IMG/VR virus record: IMGVR_UViG_3300037010_002556 | Span: 1 to 29,572 of that record | Direction: 5' to 3' (one strand) | From: a virus | DNA length: 29,572 nucleotides | Shown: piece after piece, positions 1,409 through 14,505 of the stretch | Position numbering within the stretch: the first letter of the stretch is position 1 | Layout: each line of letters starts with the position of its first letter | Notes under the pieces: generated by a model | Told to the model about the DNA's origin: nothing | The model's database searches: none | Seen by the model: the letters and a program-made list of their open reading frames with translations, nothing else | Position numbers and translations under genes: made by a program

Positions 1409-3460
1409 ATGAGCAATAACAACGAAATTCAAGATCTTGGAGCATTTGGTAAAGATTGGGTCTTCGTCCTTGAAAGGATGTCAGATTCTAATGTTGTTGA
1501 AGTGAAATCCAAGAATGAAGGTGGCGACTATATTCTCGAAGGTATAGCAGCGGTATTCGGACAGGAAAACAACAATCATAGAATATACGAGGAAAAGGAA
1601 TATCTTCCACACCTTGAATATTTACAAAAGAAAATTGCAAAGAAAAGTTTACTTGGTGAACTTGATCACCCTGCAAATTTCGAGACATCATTAAAAAACG
1701 CTTCTCATATTGTTGAATCATTAGAATATGATAAAGCAAATAGAAACGTTAAAATCAGAATAAGACTTATCAATGGACACCCAGCCGGTGAAATGGCAAA
1801 GGCTCTTGTAAATGCAGGAGTTCCATTACACATCTCTTCAAGAGCTGCAGGTGTTGTTAAAGAGAACAAGAAAGTTCAAATCAAAAAGATATTTACGTAT
1901 GACTTAGTAGAAAGTCCTGGCTTTGAACAAGCAGAACTTGAAAGAATCTATGAAAGCGTACAAGCTAAATTCAATGGAAAGGGTTCAGATTCAATTACTG
2001 AAGGGTTAGAAGATGTAACAAATAATGTAATTGGAGAAAATTCTGATTCGTTGAAGATATATAGAATAGATGAAAATCATCAAAACGCTTTTTTAAAGGC
2101 GTTAGATATTGAAAAAAATAATAATATCTCAGAAATGGCTAATAGAGATTTTGTAACAGTGGATGACATGAATGGATATTCACAAGTTATTAAAAAAGAA
2201 TTACAAGCGCTTAAAGATAAGATAAACAATCCTGAAGCAGCAAACGAGAATGCACCAGCAGTGGACGTTCTTGAACAAAGAATCGAGAGGATTGAAAAAT
2301 ACATGAAGTATCTTGCTGAGAACGTTGATAAAAATATTCAGTACTCTGAATATTTAGCAGAAAACGTTGACAAGACTATTGAGTATTCTAAATACTTAGC
2401 TGAGAACTTAGACAAGACTATCTCTTATGGAGAATACCTTGCAGAAAACGTTGACAAATCTATTTCTTATGGTGAATACCTTGCTGAGAACTTAGATAAG
2501 AGCATTACATACGCAAACTACCTTGCTGAGAATCTTGAAAAAGGAATTTCTTATGCTGAGTATCTTGCTGAGAACGTAGACAAAGCCATTTCCTACGGTG
2601 AATACCTTGCTGAGAACTTAGACAGAACAATCGCTTATGGTGAATACCTTGCTGAGAACTTAGATAAGAGCCTTGATTACAGCGAATACATTGCAGAAAA
2701 AGTTGACCAAAGCATTGCTTATGGTGAATATCTTTCTGAGACTTTAGATAAAGGAATTACATATTCTGAATATTTAGCTGAAAAAATTGAGAAAAACATA
2801 GCGTACTCTGAATATATAGCTGAGAACGTTAATATCGATGCTCCTAAAACTGCAACTGAAGTTGCAAAAGCAGAGGTAAATGAAAACAAGAAAGAAACAG
2901 GAAAAGTTGATTATACAACTTTACCTACACAGATAAGTTCATTGCTTGAAACTGTTAAAAACCAGAAAACAGCATCCGCATTGAACGAGAGCAAATACGC
3001 TTTTTATAAGCTTCTTAACGAAGACAAAAGAAAAGAATTTGTTGCTCTCGATGAGACCAAGAAAGAAAAGGTCGTTAAGGCGTTGGAAAACGGCGCTTAC
3101 TTCTCGGAAATGGACATCATCAAAAAATGGGATGCGTCATTAATAGAGCAAGAAAAGCCAACTGAACCTAAGTTCATTACGGAAATGCCAGAGAGCGTAA
3201 AACCAATCTGGGAATCTATGAATGTTCAAGAGAAAGAAGCAATAGTAGCAGCAAGTAAATTGCGTAAACTTGAAACTTCTTATCAAATAAAGAACTTCTG
3301 GAGTACAAGACCAGGAATGAGCAAAGACAAAGCAGTGGGTCTAATCAGACTCAACGAGAACGAAACAGCAGCTAATGCCGCAAAACCGAACATGACAGGG
3401 TATACAAATGACTACATGTCGGGAGTAGCTGATGAGTTAGCAAAGCGTTTCAAGAAGTAA
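1409..3460 (+). CDS. prohead core protease fused to scaffold protein (gp21-gp22 type)
   Basis: Residues about 1-185 resemble the T4 gp21 / peptidase S77 prohead protease. They include GELDHP with a candidate catalytic His at 87, HISSRAAG with a candidate catalytic Ser at 143/144, and YDLVESPGFE near 164-173. The region after about 190 is highly charged. Residues 298-479 are 13 copies of a 14-residue unit built on YGEYLAENLDK, expected to form an extended coiled coil. A charged C-terminal region (480-683) ends in a basic helix, as scaffolds that contact the capsid protein often do. In T4 the protease (gp21) and scaffold (gp22) are separate, so 683 aa fits a fusion. The LAE in nearly every repeat matches the (L/I)-x-E consensus of this protease class. 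The capsid protein gene follows after 27 bases. Confidence 0.85.
   Translation: MSNNNEIQDLGAFGKDWVFVLERMSDSNVVEVKSKNEGGDYILEGIAAVFGQENNNHRIYEEKEYLPHLEYLQKKIAKKSLLGELDHPANFETSLKNASHIVESLEYDKANRNVKIRIRLINGHPAGEMAKALVNAGVPLHISSRAAGVVKENKKVQIKKIFTYDLVESPGFEQAELERIYESVQAKFNGKGSDSITEGLEDVTNNVIGENSDSLKIYRIDENHQNAFLKALDIEKNNNISEMANRDFVTVDDMNGYSQVIKKELQALKDKINNPEAANENAPAVDVLEQRIERIEKYMKYLAENVDKNIQYSEYLAENVDKTIEYSKYLAENLDKTISYGEYLAENVDKSISYGEYLAENLDKSITYANYLAENLEKGISYAEYLAENVDKAISYGEYLAENLDRTIAYGEYLAENLDKSLDYSEYIAEKVDQSIAYGEYLSETLDKGITYSEYLAEKIEKNIAYSEYIAENVNIDAPKTATEVAKAEVNENKKETGKVDYTTLPTQISSLLETVKNQKTASALNESKYAFYKLLNEDKRKEFVALDETKKEKVVKALENGAYFSEMDIIKKWDASLIEQEKPTEPKFITEMPESVKPIWESMNVQEKEAIVAASKLRKLETSYQIKNFWSTRPGMSKDKAVGLIRLNENETAANAAKPNMTGYTNDYMSGVADELAKRFKK
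2300..2845 (+). repeat. 13 x 42-bp in-frame tandem repeat (14-aa scaffold unit)
   Basis: Thirteen consecutive 42-bp units encode Y-x-(E/K/N)-Y-(L/I)-(A/S)-E-(N/K/T)-(V/L/I)-(D/E/N) and a short variable tail; the last unit is truncated. Each unit is two heptads long. Nucleotide identity is high between some units (for example around 2468-2504 and 2635-2671), which suggests recent expansion by unequal recombination. Codon differences between other units show it is not an assembly collapse artefact. Confidence 0.95.
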
Positions 3461-3487: not shown

Positions 3488-5014
3488 ATGAAAATGATTA
3501 ACGAACAAGAGATCTTTGATAACTGGTCTCCGATCATCGAGAGCAAAACAACAATCAAAGACTCTAACAAAGTAGAATGGCTTTCTAAATATTGCCACTA
3601 CCACTCACTAAATGAAAGTTCTTCGACCGCATATCAGACTTTGTCTGGTCTTGCAGGATTCCAAGGACAACCAGTTGCTCCTACAAGAGGTGCTACAGGT
3701 TCAGGTGACAAATTCCCTTCTTTACTTCCATTAGCTATCCAGGTAGCTGCGAAGACTGTAGGTTTTGACATCGTTCCAGTTATCCCTATGCCAGGTCCAA
3801 CGGGTGTTTTAACTTACCTTGACTATGTATATGGTGGTGGTCAGTTAAACTCTGCGACTCAGCCTTTAGTAATTAAAGCTGGTATCTCAGGTACTTACAC
3901 AGTAGATTCAACTTACACTACAACAACTGTTGCTGGTGCTAACGCGGTTCTTACCTTCGTAGGTAAATCTCGTATCGATGGTTTCCCAATCTTCAGATAC
4001 GCTGCTGGTTTATTACCTAACACTCCAGTATCTACAGTATTTGCTCCTGCATCTACTTTCACTATCACTGACGATTTATCTGCAACCATCGCGTTGACAG
4101 TAAGCGCAGCGTTAGTTCCTGCATTAGAAGACCACATCGCTGGTTTCACTGGTGCTGGTGATACTGACACAGACGGCTGGGAAGGTCCATTCGCTACCTC
4201 TACAGGTAACGACGGTCCAATGACCAGAGAAACTGGTGAGTCAACGTACTACAGATCTATGGGTCTTAAAACGTTCACTAAGTTCGTTGAAGCTAAAACC
4301 TACCAGGTTGCTGCTTCTGTAACAACTGAGCAAATTCAGGATCTTAACAAACAATTCGGTATTGACGTGGTTTCCATGGTTGAGAACGCATTGGTGAATG
4401 AGATTTCTCAGTCTATCAACAAGCACATCTTAGGAACTGCGTTCACTCAAGGTGCTACGAACTCGACAAACTTCGCGGCAAACGAAGGTCAGTCGTTAAA
4501 CTTAAACCTTGCTGCCTTGCCAACAGTTGGTACGTTCGAAAATCAGATGACCTTCCAAAGAAGAATCTTCTCGAGAATTCTTGCGGCTGCTAACGTTGTT
4601 GCTAACAGAGGTAGAAGAGGTCCTGCAAACTTTGTTGTTTGTAACTCGCAAATTGCAACTGCAATTCAAGACATCAGCCAATTCGTAACAGCTCCATTCG
4701 CTAACACTGCATCGCAGAATAATGGATCGCTTTACCCAGTTGGTTCACTTGCTGGAATGACAGTTTATGTTGATCAAAACATGAAATGGAATGACACAAG
4801 AGTTCTTGTTGGAAGAAAAGGTTCTGACGATGAGCCAGGTATTAAATTCATGCCATACATGATGGCTGAGTCTATCCAGACTATCTCTGAAGGAACTATG
4901 TCTCCAAAGATTGCGGTAAAATCAAGATACGCGTTAGTGCTTGCAGGTTTCCACCCGGAAACTATGTACTTCACGTTCTCTATCGCCTTGCCAAGTTCAG
5001 GTCTGATCGTGTAA
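3488..5014 (+). CDS. major capsid protein, T4 gp23-like
   Basis: A 508-aa protein, close to T4 gp23 in length (about 520). The N-terminal 43 residues form a charged propeptide ending in SLNE-S (residues 40-44). This fits cleavage after (L/I)-x-E by the gp21-type protease encoded just upstream. The next part has the gp23-like run AYQTLSGLAGFQGQ followed by PTRGATGSGDKFPSLLPLA. The middle (about 120-250) is rich in Thr, Ala and Gly, as an inserted surface domain would be. C-terminal stretches such as FVVCNSQIA and SRYALVLAGFHPETMYF fit the HK97-fold core. It shows careful codon use (many C-ending codons) unlike most neighbours, as expected for the most abundant protein. A terminator follows. 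Confidence 0.9.
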   Translation: MKMINEQEIFDNWSPIIESKTTIKDSNKVEWLSKYCHYHSLNESSSTAYQTLSGLAGFQGQPVAPTRGATGSGDKFPSLLPLAIQVAAKTVGFDIVPVIPMPGPTGVLTYLDYVYGGGQLNSATQPLVIKAGISGTYTVDSTYTTTTVAGANAVLTFVGKSRIDGFPIFRYAAGLLPNTPVSTVFAPASTFTITDDLSATIALTVSAALVPALEDHIAGFTGAGDTDTDGWEGPFATSTGNDGPMTRETGESTYYRSMGLKTFTKFVEAKTYQVAASVTTEQIQDLNKQFGIDVVSMVENALVNEISQSINKHILGTAFTQGATNSTNFAANEGQSLNLNLAALPTVGTFENQMTFQRRIFSRILAAANVVANRGRRGPANFVVCNSQIATAIQDISQFVTAPFANTASQNNGSLYPVGSLAGMTVYVDQNMKWNDTRVLVGRKGSDDEPGIKFMPYMMAESIQTISEGTMSPKIAVKSRYALVLAGFHPETMYFTFSIALPSSGLIV

Positions 5015-5088: not shown

Positions 5089-5787
5089 ATGATTGGAATT
5101 TACAAAATAAGAAATAAAATAAATGGAAAATTTTATATTGGATCTTCCATAAATATAAATCATAGGTGGACTATACATACTAATTCATTAAAAAGAGGTG
5201 ATCACCATTCAATTGTATTACAAAGAGCATGGGATAAATATGGTCCAGATAATTTCATATTTGAAATAATAGAAGAGACTTCTAATGATGTTCTAATTGA
5301 ACGTGAGCAGTTTTACTTAGATGAATTAAAGCCTGCATATAATATAAGTTATACTGCTGGAAATTGTTTAGGAGTAAAAAGAAGTAAAGCTACTAAAGAG
5401 AAATTAAGAGAAATTAATTTAGGAAAGAAACATTCGGATGAAACAAAAAAGAAAATATCCAAAGGTCTTAAAAATTCTGAAACTTGGAAAGACTCTGTTA
5501 CTTCTGATGAATACAGAGAAAAGATGAGGGAACTTAATTTAGGAGAAAATAATCCAATGTGGGGTAAAGGCATAAAGGGTGAGACTAATCACATGTGGGG
5601 TAAATTTGGAAAACTACATCAAAGAGCGAGAAAAATCCTCCAATATAAAAAGACGGGTGAGTTTGTTAAAAAATGGGATTCATTAGCAGATGCAGAACGA
5701 GAAGGATTTTTACACGGTAATGTAAGTTCATGTTGTTCTGGGAAAATAAAAAGCGCATACGGATTTATTTGGAAGTGGACTAAATAA
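5089..5787 (+). CDS. GIY-YIG homing endonuclease with NUMOD modules
   Basis: A 232-aa protein starting MIGIYKIRNKINGKFYIGSS, which contains both the GIY and YIG elements of the nuclease domain (residues 1-90), followed by RAWDKYGPDNFIFEIIEE and an expected catalytic Glu. The middle carries two NUMOD3-like modules (LREINLGKKHS near 105-115 and MRELNLGENNPMWGK near 146-160). The end (about 190-232) resembles a NUMOD1/IENR1 DNA-binding helix. This is the layout of free-standing phage homing endonucleases of the Seg/I-TevI kind. It sits just after the capsid gene, a common spot for homing genes, and outside its terminator. It probably cuts alleles of a nearby gene in related phages. Confidence 0.9.
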   Translation: MIGIYKIRNKINGKFYIGSSININHRWTIHTNSLKRGDHHSIVLQRAWDKYGPDNFIFEIIEETSNDVLIEREQFYLDELKPAYNISYTAGNCLGVKRSKATKEKLREINLGKKHSDETKKKISKGLKNSETWKDSVTSDEYREKMRELNLGENNPMWGKGIKGETNHMWGKFGKLHQRARKILQYKKTGEFVKKWDSLADAEREGFLHGNVSSCCSGKIKSAYGFIWKWTK

Positions 5788-9178: not shown

Positions 9179-9577
9179 ATGAACAATCATCAAAACATGA
9201 AGAGAATTAAACCGTTAGAAGAATTCGGTAAGGACTTTTTACAAGAAGCCATCACTCCTGAAAAGGCAAAGTTTAGATTCTCCATTACAGCCAACATCAA
9301 AAAGGTTTCTAAGATTAATAAAACAATGATTGACATCCATCAGTTGTTGATAGAAATGAGTGATGAGATAGTTGCTTTGAAATTATCATACGATAATTTG
9401 GATGCTGAATCAATGAGAGTCATCAACAACATGAAGACTAATATTGACAATTTGATTGGAGCTCTTAAGAAGAAAAAAGAAGATGGATCTTATACTGGAA
9501 TGATTGACAACTCTGCAAGATTGGAAAGAAATCTCGAGAGGTTGAAGACCGGTTTCTTAAAAATGAAAGGAGTTTAA
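9179..9577 (+). CDS. putative internal head protein with capsid-targeting leader, 132 aa
   Basis: The N-terminus reads MNNHQNMKRIKPLEEFGKDF and then LQEA. The MKRIKPLEEF part resembles the capsid-targeting leaders of T4 internal proteins (MKTYQEFIAEA type), and LQE-A fits a gp21-type cleavage site. The remainder (about 30-132) is basic, helical and probably a coiled coil. A second ATG at 9197 would give the leader directly. The 9179 start is kept because its distance to the candidate promoter equals that seen for the protease gene. It is first in a five-gene plus-strand block with minimal gaps. Role unknown; packaging into the head is inferred. Confidence 0.65.
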   Translation: MNNHQNMKRIKPLEEFGKDFLQEAITPEKAKFRFSITANIKKVSKINKTMIDIHQLLIEMSDEIVALKLSYDNLDAESMRVINNMKTNIDNLIGALKKKKEDGSYTGMIDNSARLERNLERLKTGFLKMKGV

Positions 9578-9579
9578 CC

Positions 9580-9858
9580 ATGAAATTTATTAAACCGTTA
9601 AACGAATATGCAAACGCCGAATCGGAGAACTACGTTGAAGTAGGTCTTGAAGGCGTTTCTGCAAAAGATATTTTATTAAATGTATATCCAAAGACTTTTG
9701 AAGTCATAGTAAAAGATTTTGATGAACAATGTGATAAGAGTTCTGAATTCAAAAACAGAAACTTAGACATGTTAAGAAGTATAATAGGTTTCTTCTCTAA
9801 ATATCACGGTAAGAGCAAGTTCATGGATACCATGATACATAAATATAACTTGAAATAA
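9580..9858 (+). CDS. putative internal head protein, 92 aa
   Basis: It starts 2 bases after the previous stop. The N-terminus MKFIKPLNEYANAESENY closely parallels the MKRIKPLEEF leader of the previous gene, and LNE-Y could be a cleavage site. The remaining roughly 75 residues are mixed alpha/beta-looking with no recognised family. Its last base overlaps the next gene (TAATG). It is placed in the capsid-targeted group on the leader alone. Confidence 0.6.
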   Translation: MKFIKPLNEYANAESENYVEVGLEGVSAKDILLNVYPKTFEVIVKDFDEQCDKSSEFKNRNLDMLRSIIGFFSKYHGKSKFMDTMIHKYNLK

Positions 9859-10736
9859 TGAAACACTTAAAAATTTATTTAAAAATGAATCCATATTTAA
9901 CTTTTCGTCAGTTCGAACGAGCTGCAATATTATTGGAAAATGCACCTGAGGCTATTAGCGACGAAGTGCTGTCTGAAAATGAATTGACGAGAGAAGACAT
10001 TGAGAAAATCAATGAAGGTATTCTTGGCGACATATTCAGCGGACTGTTTGGCAAGATAAAAGAAAAGATCTTAAAAGCAATACCAGGTTCATTATTGAAA
10101 AAAGTAGATGTAATCTTAAATGAGTACAAGAAGGTTCAATTCGAAGTTTCTGAGAAAACTCAGAAAGAGAGAAATAAGATTTATAAAGCTAACGCGGACG
10201 ATAAAGGCAACGAGAGAAATAAAGAACAAGTTAAAAGATCTGAAGCAGCAATCGCGGCTATTGAGGCTGCAAGTAAAAGCAAGAAAGAATCCATTAAAGG
10301 AAAACTTGATTTATTGGTGAGAGATAAAAGTGATGTAGTTATAGATTACGTGAAGATGCAATTATTTCAAGTGCAAGAAGATGTTGCAAACAAACAATTG
10401 AAAGATGCTGAAGAGTTTGCAAGCGAGGAAGAGCTTGATAAATTAACCAAAGAAGTGGAAGACATCAAGAAGAAGAAAGAAGCACAGAAGAAGATGATTG
10501 AAAATGCTTCCATCGAAAAGAAAGATGATAAGGTTGACGCAAAAACAGCAAAGGTTGGACAGACTTGGCTTTATAAAAAAGATGATACAGAAGAAGGACA
10601 AGAGGTTACGATAGTGCATCAGTTTGGACATACAGGAGATGGTGCAGAAGAGGGGAAGATACAAGTGAAAGGAATAAAAGATCCATTTAATGTTGAACCT
10701 GCTAAATTGGTCAAATTAATTAAAGATATAAAATAA
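9858..10736 (+). CDS. putative internal head protein, coiled coil, 292 aa
   Basis: The N-terminus carries a basic hydrophobic leader and FRQFERAAILLENAPEA. After it comes EKINE-GILGDIFSGLFG (residues 50-66), where INE-G fits prohead protease cleavage. The central region (about 85-225) is a long highly charged coiled coil. The C-terminal part (about 230-292) reads VGQTWLYKKDDTEEGQEVTI and looks like a small beta domain. The order of leader, (L/I)xE-GIL, amphipathic helix and coiled coil is shared with the next gene, so the two look paralogous. It overlaps both neighbours by one base. Confidence 0.65.
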   Translation: MKHLKIYLKMNPYLTFRQFERAAILLENAPEAISDEVLSENELTREDIEKINEGILGDIFSGLFGKIKEKILKAIPGSLLKKVDVILNEYKKVQFEVSEKTQKERNKIYKANADDKGNERNKEQVKRSEAAIAAIEAASKSKKESIKGKLDLLVRDKSDVVIDYVKMQLFQVQEDVANKQLKDAEEFASEEELDKLTKEVEDIKKKKEAQKKMIENASIEKKDDKVDAKTAKVGQTWLYKKDDTEEGQEVTIVHQFGHTGDGAEEGKIQVKGIKDPFNVEPAKLVKLIKDIK

Positions 10737-12139
10737 TGATAATAGATAAATTCAAATTATTCGAGAGCCTTTCCATTGGAGCCATTGAAAGAGGAGAACA
10801 CAGAACCATTTTGAATGAATCTGAAATGTTGGACGAAGGAATTCTTTCTTCCATTACAAATTTCTTTTCTCGCATGTTAGGAGGTTCCGTCGCAAAGATA
10901 GATAAAATACTTCGTAGGTATGAAGATGCTGAATTGGAATATTGGATTGATTGGGCTGATGCTCGTGGTAAATTTTCTGAAGCTGATGCTCTTTCTAAAG
11001 AAGCTAAATCAGATCCTATTCAGAAATCTAAATATGAAGAGCAAAAAGAAAGAATCAAGAAGCTTCAATCACAGGTTGAAGGCAAAAGAAAAGACATACT
11101 TGATGCGTTAACACGTCAGGCAAATGCAATAATCAAAGACAGCGAAAGACTTAAAGATTATTGGGAGATGAAAAAGGCTAAAATAGATGAAGATGTTGCC
11201 AGAGAATCTTACAAAGAAGTTAAGAACTCAACTGATGATGAAACCATACATCAATTGTTTGATAACGAAATTCAAAGAGCTGCAAAGATTGCAAGAGACA
11301 AAGACGCTAAATTTAAAGAGAAATATGGTCCATTGTCTTCTGGTAAATTCTTTGATCAAGCACCAAATGCGGGAAGCAATGATGATGATGATTTATCTGT
11401 TGCCGGAATTAAGATCACAGATTTAATTTCTAAACCAATATCAGAGCTACAAAGTAAACTCAAGGTTATCCCATTAGACAAGCTTGATGAGATATTAAAG
11501 TATTTAGAAAAGGAATTGAAAAAGATTAAAGACCAAAGAGATGATGACATCAAAAACATCAAAGGAAAATCTGATAAAGACCAAATAGGAAGAGAAATAG
11601 ATGACATTACAAAGAAGGTTAAACCTATAATCGATGTGATGTGGTCTAAGATTAATTACATAGATCAATTGCTTCTTGCGAATGTTGGAATTGATAAAGA
11701 GATTAAAAAAAATCCTGAAATGGTTACTGACATCACTAAGAAAGAATTAGGGGCTGAAGGTACTGACAAAGCAGTGACAGCAGCAATTGCACAAACTGCA
11801 GAAGTGGTCAAGAAGCCAGATGTAGATGCCGTGACTGAAGTCATAAGCGATCAGGTTAAAAAGAATTTTGACACTGCACGTGGAACGATAGAAGAATCTG
11901 TTGGAGAATCTATCGATGATGACGCATATACTCATTTAAAAAATGACATGATTGCTTTATATGGAAAACTTGTAATCTATTATAATAAATTGAAAAAAGG
12001 AGTTCCATCAAAAACGCTTGAATTTGGTTTAATAGATTTTGCAGCACAACTTTATAAATTCAAAAAGGAAAATGATTCTTTGAAGAAAGATCTTACTGAT
12101 GATGAACTCGAAAAACAACTCGATAAATATTCAAAATGA
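10736..12139 (+). CDS. putative internal head protein, coiled coil, 467 aa
   Basis: The leader MIIDKFKLFESLSIGAIE is followed by TILNES and then MLDE-GILSSITNFFSRMLG. Both LNE-S and LDE-G fit the cleavage consensus, and LNE-S is the same as at the capsid protein. The region about 55-170 aligns by pattern with the previous gene (KIDKIL-RRYEDAELEY, then long charged helices). The rest (about 215-467) is also mostly helical and charged, with no catalytic motif seen. Start and stop overlap neighbours (TAATG; ATGA). A core or DNA-associated internal head protein is the best guess. Confidence 0.65.
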   Translation: MIIDKFKLFESLSIGAIERGEHRTILNESEMLDEGILSSITNFFSRMLGGSVAKIDKILRRYEDAELEYWIDWADARGKFSEADALSKEAKSDPIQKSKYEEQKERIKKLQSQVEGKRKDILDALTRQANAIIKDSERLKDYWEMKKAKIDEDVARESYKEVKNSTDDETIHQLFDNEIQRAAKIARDKDAKFKEKYGPLSSGKFFDQAPNAGSNDDDDLSVAGIKITDLISKPISELQSKLKVIPLDKLDEILKYLEKELKKIKDQRDDDIKNIKGKSDKDQIGREIDDITKKVKPIIDVMWSKINYIDQLLLANVGIDKEIKKNPEMVTDITKKELGAEGTDKAVTAAIAQTAEVVKKPDVDAVTEVISDQVKKNFDTARGTIEESVGESIDDDAYTHLKNDMIALYGKLVIYYNKLKKGVPSKTLEFGLIDFAAQLYKFKKENDSLKKDLTDDELEKQLDKYSK

Positions 12140-13320
12140 TAAAAAAATTCAGATTGTTTGAATCGCTTTATGAAGCAGCTCAAACTAAAGAAACTATAAT
12201 CAAGAAAGTGAAGGATACAGTTGGAGATGTTTATTACATTCCTGATTTCCAAGAGATTTCAAGACCTGATGAACCAGATCAAATTCAGTATTTGTTTTCA
12301 GATAAAGAAGGACACTCATTTACTTTAAACTTTACTGAAGACACTGGTATTTTATATAGTATTGATTTTTGGCTTCCACATTCTACAAAAGCTGAATCTA
12401 CTCTATATGTTGTAGGTCAAGACTTGGATAGAATAATTTCATTATTACCTAAGATGATGAAGAGTCCGCATCCACAAACAGTAAGAGAAAGTGAAGATGT
12501 TGCTTCTGAACCGGTTGTTTTGGAAAAACCAGCAGACACAGTTCAAAAATCTGGAGATGATAAAGTAGATAAAATAGACAAAGAACTTCCTGAATACAAA
12601 TATCAAGATCCAAAGACCATATTTGAGGATATGAGAAAGTATGTGAAGATGGTTATAAAAGGAATTCAACCTTCTTTGCTTGTTACTGGAATGCCAGGTG
12701 TTGGTAAGACTTATATCACAAGCGATGAAATTAAAAAAGCAGGACTTGAAAAAGGAAAAGATTGGGTAAAAGTAAAAGGTAAAACTACTGCCGCAGCTTT
12801 GTATATTTCATTATACAGAAACAATGGTAAGTTAATAATATACGACGATTGTGATAGTGTGTTTAAAGATCCAAATGCTATCAACACATTGAAAGGAGCT
12901 CTTGATTCTGAAGACGATGAAAGAGACATCACATGGGATATTTCAAGAGAAATAAAAGATCCTATGAATGGTGAAGTTGTTCCAAGAAGTTTTAAGTTTA
13001 CTGGAAGGGTTATCTTCTTAAGTAACCTTGCTCAAAAAGCAGTTGATCCTGCTATCAAGTCAAGAGCATTTGTTCTTGAGGTTGCATTGTCACCAAGCGA
13101 TATGATCGAATACATTGAAGACCTTTTGCCTAAAGTAATGCCAGAAGAATCAATGGCACTTAAAAATAGTGCATTAAACACTATTAAGAGTGTTGAAAAA
13201 GTTAATAAGAAAGTTCAATTGAATATGAGAACTTTATTGAAGGCAGTAAAAATATTAAAAGAAGTTCCTGATTTAGGCGATGCAAGAAGAATGATTGTCC
13301 AACAGTGTTCGTACGAATAA
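12136..13320 (+). CDS. AAA+ ATPase with capsid-targeting-like leader, 394 aa
   Basis: The N-terminus MIKKFRLFESLYEAA repeats the KFxLFES leader of the previous gene, with LYE-A as a possible cleavage site. Residues 25-110 form an unrecognised alpha/beta domain, and 111-155 are a charged linker. The ATPase domain has Walker A GMPGVGKT at 185-192, Walker B LIIYDDCD at 233-240, a sensor-1-like IFLSN at 293-297 and IKSRAF at 307-312. This suits an AAA+ domain of the kind seen in phage ATPases of unclear role, not a helicase or terminase. Its start overlaps the previous stop (ATGA), and its stop overlaps an inserted HNH gene. Confidence 0.8.
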   Translation: MIKKFRLFESLYEAAQTKETIIKKVKDTVGDVYYIPDFQEISRPDEPDQIQYLFSDKEGHSFTLNFTEDTGILYSIDFWLPHSTKAESTLYVVGQDLDRIISLLPKMMKSPHPQTVRESEDVASEPVVLEKPADTVQKSGDDKVDKIDKELPEYKYQDPKTIFEDMRKYVKMVIKGIQPSLLVTGMPGVGKTYITSDEIKKAGLEKGKDWVKVKGKTTAAALYISLYRNNGKLIIYDDCDSVFKDPNAINTLKGALDSEDDERDITWDISREIKDPMNGEVVPRSFKFTGRVIFLSNLAQKAVDPAIKSRAFVLEVALSPSDMIEYIEDLLPKVMPEESMALKNSALNTIKSVEKVNKKVQLNMRTLLKAVKILKEVPDLGDARRMIVQQCSYE

Positions 13321-13886
13321 TGGATTACAAAAAGATATATGACAATTTAATCACTTCTCGTAAATTGAGAATTATCAATAGTGGAATTTATTACGAGAAA
13401 CATCATATTATCATGAAATCGATGGGAGGAACCAATGACAAGGATAATCTTGTTTTGCTTACTCCCAGGGAACATTTTCTTGCACACTGGTTATTATTTA
13501 AAATTTATGGAAATGCTGAATCCTCTCGAGCATTTTTCCTCATGAGTAATAGAGGGAAAAATAAAAAATATCTATCTTCTCGTGCTTATGCTGAAGCAAG
13601 AGAGGCTTTTTCGAAAATTAAAGTTTCCGAAGAAACCAGAAGAAAAATAGGTTTGAAATCACAAAATCGTTTTCACTCAAATGAGCAAAAGAAGAAAAAC
13701 TCAGATGCTCATTTAGGAAAAACAACTTGGAACAAAGGAATTTCAAATAAGCCGGAACAGTGTAAAAATATTTCGAAATCATTAAATAAATTTTATGATT
13801 CTGATGAAGGTCTTTTATTAAAACAAAAAAGATCTGATATGGTTAAAGAGTATTGGAAAAATAAAAAAAATTCCAATGCAAAATAG
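13320..13886 (+). CDS. HNH homing endonuclease with NUMOD3-like region, 188 aa
   Basis: The start ATG at 13320 overlaps the TAA of the ATPase gene (TAATGG). An earlier ATG inside the ATPase gene is less likely. The HNH core reads YEKHHIIMKSMGG (around 24-36) then DNLVLLTPREHFLAHWLLF, with the usual His/Asn/His placement. The C-terminal half is basic and holds ETRRKIGLKSQNRFHS and GKTTWNKGISNKPE, typical of NUMOD3 DNA-binding modules. It ends in TAG, a stop rare among genes here, and overlaps the next start by 11 bases. It is probably a free-standing homing gene inserted into the head protein block without damaging the flanking genes. Confidence 0.85.
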   Translation: MDYKKIYDNLITSRKLRIINSGIYYEKHHIIMKSMGGTNDKDNLVLLTPREHFLAHWLLFKIYGNAESSRAFFLMSNRGKNKKYLSSRAYAEAREAFSKIKVSEETRRKIGLKSQNRFHSNEQKKKNSDAHLGKTTWNKGISNKPEQCKNISKSLNKFYDSDEGLLLKQKRSDMVKEYWKNKKNSNAK

Positions 13887-14505
13887 AAAGATAAAGACAT
13901 ATAGTCAATTTGTCTTTGAGAAAGCAATTCCATTCGAAGACATTTTAAAAGATGATACACAGCAAGGACTTGTTGTCAAAGACAGCAAAGCACCAGGTGG
14001 TGGAATTCTTCGTAATATAGTGTTGTATGATTTTGACGATAAAAAAGTTCTTGCATTTGCACAAATACGTGAGTGGGATGGAATTTGGGAAATCAATATG
14101 ACAGTAGCGGAAAAGGATTACGGTCCAGATCTTTACGACCTTGCTCTTATGTCTGCATATCCTGAACCCATAATTCCATCAAAGACTATTAAACCTGCTG
14201 CACAAAGAGTTTGGACCTATTATAAAGAGAAAAGAAATGATGTTAAGAAGGTTCCTATTCCAGAGGACCACAGCGAGTATAAGAAAAGATATGAGACTTC
14301 AGTTAATGGAAAAGAAGCTTATAGTAAAGATCCAGACATGCTTAACGTGATAAATACAATGTATTCATTAGAACAAAGCGATGTATTTGACAAACTCATT
14401 AAACGTGGCGAAGAGTATCTTATAAAATATCACGTTGATAAGAATAAAATTATTCATGATGCAGATAGAGTATTTTGGAAAAGATATGACTTGTCAACAG
14501 ATTAA
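13876..14505 (+). CDS. putative internal head protein with T4-like leader, 209 aa
   Basis: Residues 5-15 read KIKTYSQFVFEKA, strikingly close to the MKTYQEFIAEA leader of T4 internal proteins, and VFE-K may be the cut site. The body contains DFDDKKVLAFAQIREWDGIW, which looks like a mixed beta-sheet domain, and LYDLALMSAYPEPIIPSKTI. It resembles phage proteins with an acetyltransferase-like or toxin-like core, but no catalytic motif can be named. The last 70 residues are helical. It overlaps the HNH gene and ends the block before a likely new promoter near 14528. Confidence 0.65.
   Translation: MQNRKIKTYSQFVFEKAIPFEDILKDDTQQGLVVKDSKAPGGGILRNIVLYDFDDKKVLAFAQIREWDGIWEINMTVAEKDYGPDLYDLALMSAYPEPIIPSKTIKPAAQRVWTYYKEKRNDVKKVPIPEDHSEYKKRYETSVNGKEAYSKDPDMLNVINTMYSLEQSDVFDKLIKRGEEYLIKYHVDKNKIIHDADRVFWKRYDLSTD

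Follow-up and report, generated by a model that had tools for sequence, protein, structure and literature searches.

The window analyzed here, a 29,572-nucleotide stretch of viral DNA (IMG/VR record IMGVR_UViG_3300037010_002556), contains on its forward strand an open reading frame at 1409..3460 that encodes a 683-residue protein (P0001), in which a protease is joined to a scaffold. The protein matches the head maturation protease profile phrog_207 (E=9e-37) and Pfam Peptidase_S77 (E=2e-8, 34.7 bits versus a cut-off of 27). The gp21-type serine protease domain is located at 1526..1951 (+; residues ~40-181): a profile of 37 homologs matches T4 gp21 (5JBL; E=2e-5), and a Foldseek comparison of the modeled domain with 5JBL gives an E value of 2e-9 and a TM score by target of 0.72-0.74. 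The motifs GE(L/F)DHP and SSRAAG are kept in the 37 homologs and are present in the window protein as GELDHP (H87) and ISSRAAG (S144); the alignment with 5JBL spans both motif stretches, and 5JBL has an alanine at the histidine position. From this alignment and from knowledge of T4 gp21, we take H87 and S144 to be the catalytic pair. By sequence and fold, the protease is of the T4 gp21 type, and it is predicted to cut after L/I-x-E, the specificity that the earlier note had assigned to T4-type proteases and that two reports establish for T4 gp21 (PMC9026906, PMC9958956).

The major capsid protein gene, of the gp23 family (3488..5014, +; Pfam Gp23, E=2e-44), starts 28 nt downstream of the end of the fusion gene, and a GIY-YIG homing endonuclease is encoded directly downstream of the capsid gene (window 5089-5787), comparable to SegD downstream of T4 gp23. 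A helical segment (predicted helix 285-473) is present between the protease and the gp23-type capsid gene, as expected of a gp22-like core scaffold; together with the profile and fold matches, this long predicted helix bears out the protease-scaffold fusion proposed in the earlier note. Homologs of the fusion, of which ~100 were collected, occur in uncultured phages of 462-735 kb (LR756500-LR756504 and LR745206) and in hundreds of IMG/VR contigs.

The scaffold part contains thirteen 14-residue coiled-coil units (2309..2854, +; residues 301-482) with the consensus Y-L-A-E-N-(L/V)-D-K-x-I-x-Y-(S/G)-E. The motif (L/I)(A/S)E occupies unit positions 2-4 in 13 of 13 units, as LAE or IAE in units 1-10, 12 and 13 and as LSE in unit 11, and the distance from one (L/I)xE to the next is exactly 14 residues twelve times in succession, which places the predicted cuts after positions 2320+42n (n=0..12). 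Unit 13 retains only YIAENVN, after which the sequence departs from the repeat. The thirteen units and their common motif position had been recognized previously and are confirmed; the span given at that time, 2300-2845, is about right, the array proper being 2309-2854. The linker and the C-terminal helical part of the scaffold follow (2855..3460, +) and contain more (L/I)-x-E motifs at irregular spacing (LNE|S, LNE|N and LNE|D). Helices are predicted with low confidence at residues 285-398 and 408-473, and the pLDDT of the repeat in the predicted structure (~36-66) is too low to assess the register of the coil or its oligomer state.

Residues 301-482 contain 13 (L/I)xE motifs, compared with a mean of 4.7 and a maximum of 11 in 5000 shuffles of the stretch. 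A chance origin of the in-register motifs is rejected by these shuffles, although one motif per unit is readily obtained by chance, 42% of shuffled consensus units containing (L/I)xE at least once. Because of this single-unit chance and because the units are homologous copies, the motif count alone is weak evidence; the fair null is one unit, and the question is therefore one of retention rather than count. Recent duplication is also rejected, as the units have diverged in nucleotides and are orthologous unit by unit between relatives. The mean between-unit nucleotide identity is only 69%, and the glutamate codons of the first twelve units are mixed (GAG in 8, GAA in 4), which indicates that the array is old and maintained at the protein level.

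Retention of the site was assessed in 48 representatives (<80% identity) with columns 2-4 masked during registration, which yielded 450 complete units from 45 lineages. Position 4 is E in 418 of these units (93%) and D in 1, position 2 is L/I/V in 447 (99%), and position 3 is A/G/S in 446. Across all homologs, (L/I/V)xE is found in 965 of 1050 units, 780 of them with (L/I)xE, and D stands at position 4 in 6. Valine replaces L/I at position 2 in ~17% of units, and the relatives use V as often as I. On a helix with 3.5 residues per turn, E4 is positioned ~150 degrees from the hydrophobic moment, i.e., at the pole opposite the hydrophobic face. Position 11, which shares this helical angle, is the most variable column (entropy of 3.1 bits versus 0.56 for position 4); in a comparison of 420 orthologous unit pairs from sister lineages, the residue differed at position 4 in 6.0% and at position 11 in 28.8% (p=4e-19). 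Additionally, E-D exchange is rarer at position 4 (3 of 25 changes) than at positions 7 (16 of 56) and 14 (12 of 33). A salt bridge between E4 and K8 was considered as the reason for E4 and rejected: the occurrence of E4 is independent of a basic residue at position 8 (p=0.58), which argues against such a bridge.

The glutamate is not retained everywhere. In a sub-clade that includes L105, L111, L086, L102, L091, L079 and others, T, G, K or Q occupies position 4 in one to six units and the coil continues; E4 is absent from 6 of 10 units in L105, 4 of 9 in L111 and 3 of 5 in L003, all of which keep the 14-residue coil, and LR756500 likewise lacks E in several units. The persistence of these coils indicates that the coil does not require E4, and also that the phage does not require a site in every unit. 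The alignment check proposed in the earlier note, whether LAE stays fixed while other positions change, supports retention: the site is kept across distant homologs and nearby exposed positions vary, apart from the units of this sub-clade that lack E and the valine at position 2.

The (L/I/V)xE motif is conserved at three expected places, namely the repeats, the protease-domain border and the N-terminal region of the capsid protein. A predicted self-cleavage site, I-Y-E|S, lies between the protease and the scaffold (1946..1954, +), and (L/I/V)-x-E-(S/A/G) is found here in every homolog checked; this conserved motif behind the protease domain is likely the self-release site. The predicted capsid maturation site, S-L-N-E|S, follows residue 43 (3608..3616, +) and is conserved as (L/I/M)-x-E-(S/N/G/A) in homologs. 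An asparagine follows the predicted capsid cut in about one quarter of the lineages, which by analogy makes LAE|N plausible as a cut site. In the repeats, the residue after E4 is N in 255 of 418 units and K in 92, in contrast to the S, A or G that predominates at the best-supported sites; a lysine after the cut may be tolerated by analogy with the N-terminal leader peptides of a 482-kb relative (G001), its sole precedent. A coupling of V at P3 in the repeats with V at P3 at the domain border was looked for among the homologs, and the signal is not clean. A helical substrate must also unwind before it is cut, which counts against cleavage within the coil.

The conservation of L-A-E could instead reflect coil architecture. 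E4 and Tyr1 would then form a second helix-helix contact, the match to the protease motif would be incidental, and the scaffold would be cut mainly in the unstructured linkers (LNE|S, LNE|N) and leave as larger pieces. Tyr1, Ile10 and Tyr12 are conserved to the same degree as E4, and the exposed angle of Tyr1 suggests that the outward face may serve a structural function as well; however, the coils of L105, L111 and L003 persist with E4 missing in many units, and position 11, at the same angle as E4, is unconstrained. The ease with which a shuffled consensus unit acquires (L/I)xE, the recurrence of the unit with its E in proteins that are not known to be cleaved, and the location of the sites with a preferred small residue after the cut in the linkers and at the domain border are consistent with the architectural explanation, whereas the near absence of D at position 4, when other acidic positions exchange freely, and the motif enrichment of unrelated T4-type scaffolds are not. 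On balance, we regard this explanation as unlikely, although it is the most serious competitor to cleavage of the repeat.

The (L/I)xE motif is enriched 2.7-fold over shuffles in the window fusion and 1.8-3.5-fold in 11 scaffolds or protease-scaffold fusions of other T4-type phages (gp22 and ten more), with a median gap of 12.5-18 in 9 of the 11. T4 gp22 itself has 16 motifs in 269 residues versus 5.8 expected, irregularly spaced with a median gap of 15. When ORFs of at least 100 residues are ranked by enrichment in ~150 kb of T4 stretches, the first 400 kb of the 482-kb relative and the whole window, gp22 is 1st of 152 T4 ORFs, with gp21, gp23 and gp68 within the top ten, and the fusion is 1st of 446 in the relative and 1st of 29 in the window. 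Although E, L and I abound in scaffolds and a motif of three residues is short, the possibility that the enrichment is the mere composition of glutamate-rich helices, with no selection for cleavage, has very little probability: shuffles that preserve composition yield clearly fewer motifs than observed (less than half as many in most scaffolds), and four control proteins of the window, long or charged, show no enrichment. The enrichment score also offers a simple finder of prohead-protease substrates in phage genomes. The ORF at rank 2 of 446 in the 482-kb relative (L168:7622-8752; 376 aa, leader MAKRFHNFEEFILE; 14 motifs versus 6.1 expected) encodes, judging by these sequence features, a candidate second core or internal protein.

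Several ORFs outside the core carry leader-like N-termini. A strict pattern for the N-terminal leader, exemplified by MKHIKLFENFLNE, is matched by 22 ORFs of the 482-kb relative, compared with a chance mean of 1.5 and a maximum of 6 ORFs in 500 shuffles; ~18 of the 22 look convincing. The common leader MKHIKLFENF(L/I/V)NE begins ~18-25 ORFs in L155-L174 (for example, those at L162:7415, 7753, 11174, 12581, 17377 and 18170 and at L168:5435, 8755 and 9944). We take this leader to resemble the capsid-targeting sequence of T4 IPII/IPIII, MKTYQEFIAE, and by this analogy the ORFs are candidates for packaged or ejected proteins. In the window, a run of ORFs at 9179-14505 has leader-like N-termini that end in (L/I)xE or similar: FLQE|A (9179), ILLE|N (9858), ILNE|S (10736), FESLYE|A (12136, AAA ATPase-like) and QFVFE|K (13876). 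An HNH homing endonuclease-like ORF (13305-13886), so described by reading of its sequence, overlaps the end of the AAA ATPase-like gene. In LR745206, a five-ORF cluster on the minus strand (L179:3888-6343) has the starts MKYLKKYNES, MKHLKRYNES and similar, which may represent a leader variant.

Some non-scaffold proteins of huge phages also contain the 14-residue unit, from one to four times each, namely a DUF6378 protein, a collagen-like protein and small ORFs (L113:57-998, L114:261-884, L115:236-487 on the minus strand and L153:1047-1277). The glutamate is kept in 9 of 11 of these units by our reading, and most copies are found again with columns 2-4 masked. These proteins carrying the unit with its E are the strongest counter-observation to cleavage of the repeat. 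A role of the repeat mainly as a docking module, in which other proteins with two or three units would be anchored to the core by the pairing of matching coils and set free at the cut sites, would suit the DUF6378 protein of G001, encoded 0.4 kb upstream of a gene cluster with capsid-targeting-like leaders, but appears most improbable, as non-scaffold copies are present in only 4 of 25 records having the unit and those of W01 and W02 are not clearly among head genes.

Cleavage of the repeat by the adjoining protease is the explanation we prefer, and with good but not full confidence we propose that the locus encodes a T4-type prohead core in which protease and scaffold are fused, the cut site is part of the coil repeat, and the rod is shredded by its own protease. 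In this view, a T4-type huge phage would make its prohead core from this fusion of a gp21-like protease and the protease's own scaffold. The scaffold part would be a long helix of two-heptad units, able to bundle through a broad hydrophobic face, each unit bearing the recognition site (L/I/V)-(A/S/G)-E with the glutamate directed outward. Upon closure of the shell, the protease would free itself at I-Y-E|S behind its own domain, mature the capsid protein at L-N-E|S, and cut many or even all in-register sites along the rod. Fragments of ~14 residues would arise where adjacent sites are both used, and these would exit through the shell and make room for DNA. Because the site is locked to the repeat, a rod of any unit number could be shredded. 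The shredding mechanism of the earlier note is therefore likely; its further claim that every unit is cut to give uniform 14-mers is unproven, in view of the loss of E in sub-clades, the V in place of L/I, and the occurrence of the unit with E in a few proteins that lack a known connection to the head. The repeat, the protease fold, the retained site and the motif enrichment of scaffolds are observations; use of the repeat sites and release of uniform 14-mers are what we infer.

A broader proposal is put forward tentatively, with reasons for belief and for doubt nearly in balance: in a large clade of huge phages, the core may be a self-destructing polymer whose coil repeat doubles as the cleavage site, and the rod length could change by whole units without loss of shreddability. 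More generally, the site density of T4-type scaffolds, about one per 13-18 residues, would arise because a closed head lets out short peptides only, and the clade would represent the perfectly periodic limit. How very large heads build and then empty an internal frame before DNA entry is poorly known, and a building unit that is also a cut site provides a clean, testable substrate, with predicted 14-mers of known ends.

In T4, gp21 breaks the gp22 scaffold into multiple fragments; the scaffold is degraded after shell closure and the peptides are thought to exit via shell openings (PMC9026906, PMC9958956). The structure of the T4 core is unresolved (PMC9958956). The window fusion resembles gp21/gp22 in its protease fold, its motif-dense scaffold and its position next to a gp23-type capsid gene, whereas T4 gp21 and gp22 are separate genes, the gp22 sites are irregular in spacing and context and lack a repeat unit, and the profile of the 14-residue unit has no match in T4. 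Alignments to 121Q and its relatives continue past the protease to the beginning of their scaffold gene, at 28% identity. More distantly, phiKZ, SPN3US and 201phi2-1 have diverged gp21-like proteases that cut after a short motif ending in E, and propeptides with several redundant sites; their motif is S/A-x-E or A-x-E, and regular repeat-bound sites are not described in the accessible parts of these reports (PMC9026906, PMC10052503). In Lak phage A2, the examined stretch upstream of the capsid gene contains no protease ORF, and a scan of the genome with the unit profile under the standard code gave no match.

Fusions are also encoded by other phages. Tenacibaculum phage PTm1 (BBI90692), like the window, has a protease-scaffold fusion upstream of the capsid gene, and its scaffold has its own ~16-residue repeat with LSE|G, LSE|S and LCE|G; it differs in repeat sequence and in its longer, less regular units, and the unit profile does not match it. 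Chryseobacterium phage MA9V-1 encodes an unusually long fusion of 1347 aa with many INES/LNES sites (L152:447-4490). The fusions of LR756500-LR756504 and LR745206 are homologous to the window fusion over most of their length and built of the same 14-residue unit; some have more V at position 2, and LR756500 differs by its loss of E in several units. No description of register-locked cut sites was found in the openly licensed literature, and the earlier suggestion that the design had not been described before is thus valid in part: a scaffold studded with cut sites is already known from T4 gp22, and what is new is the strict register of the site with the coil repeat.
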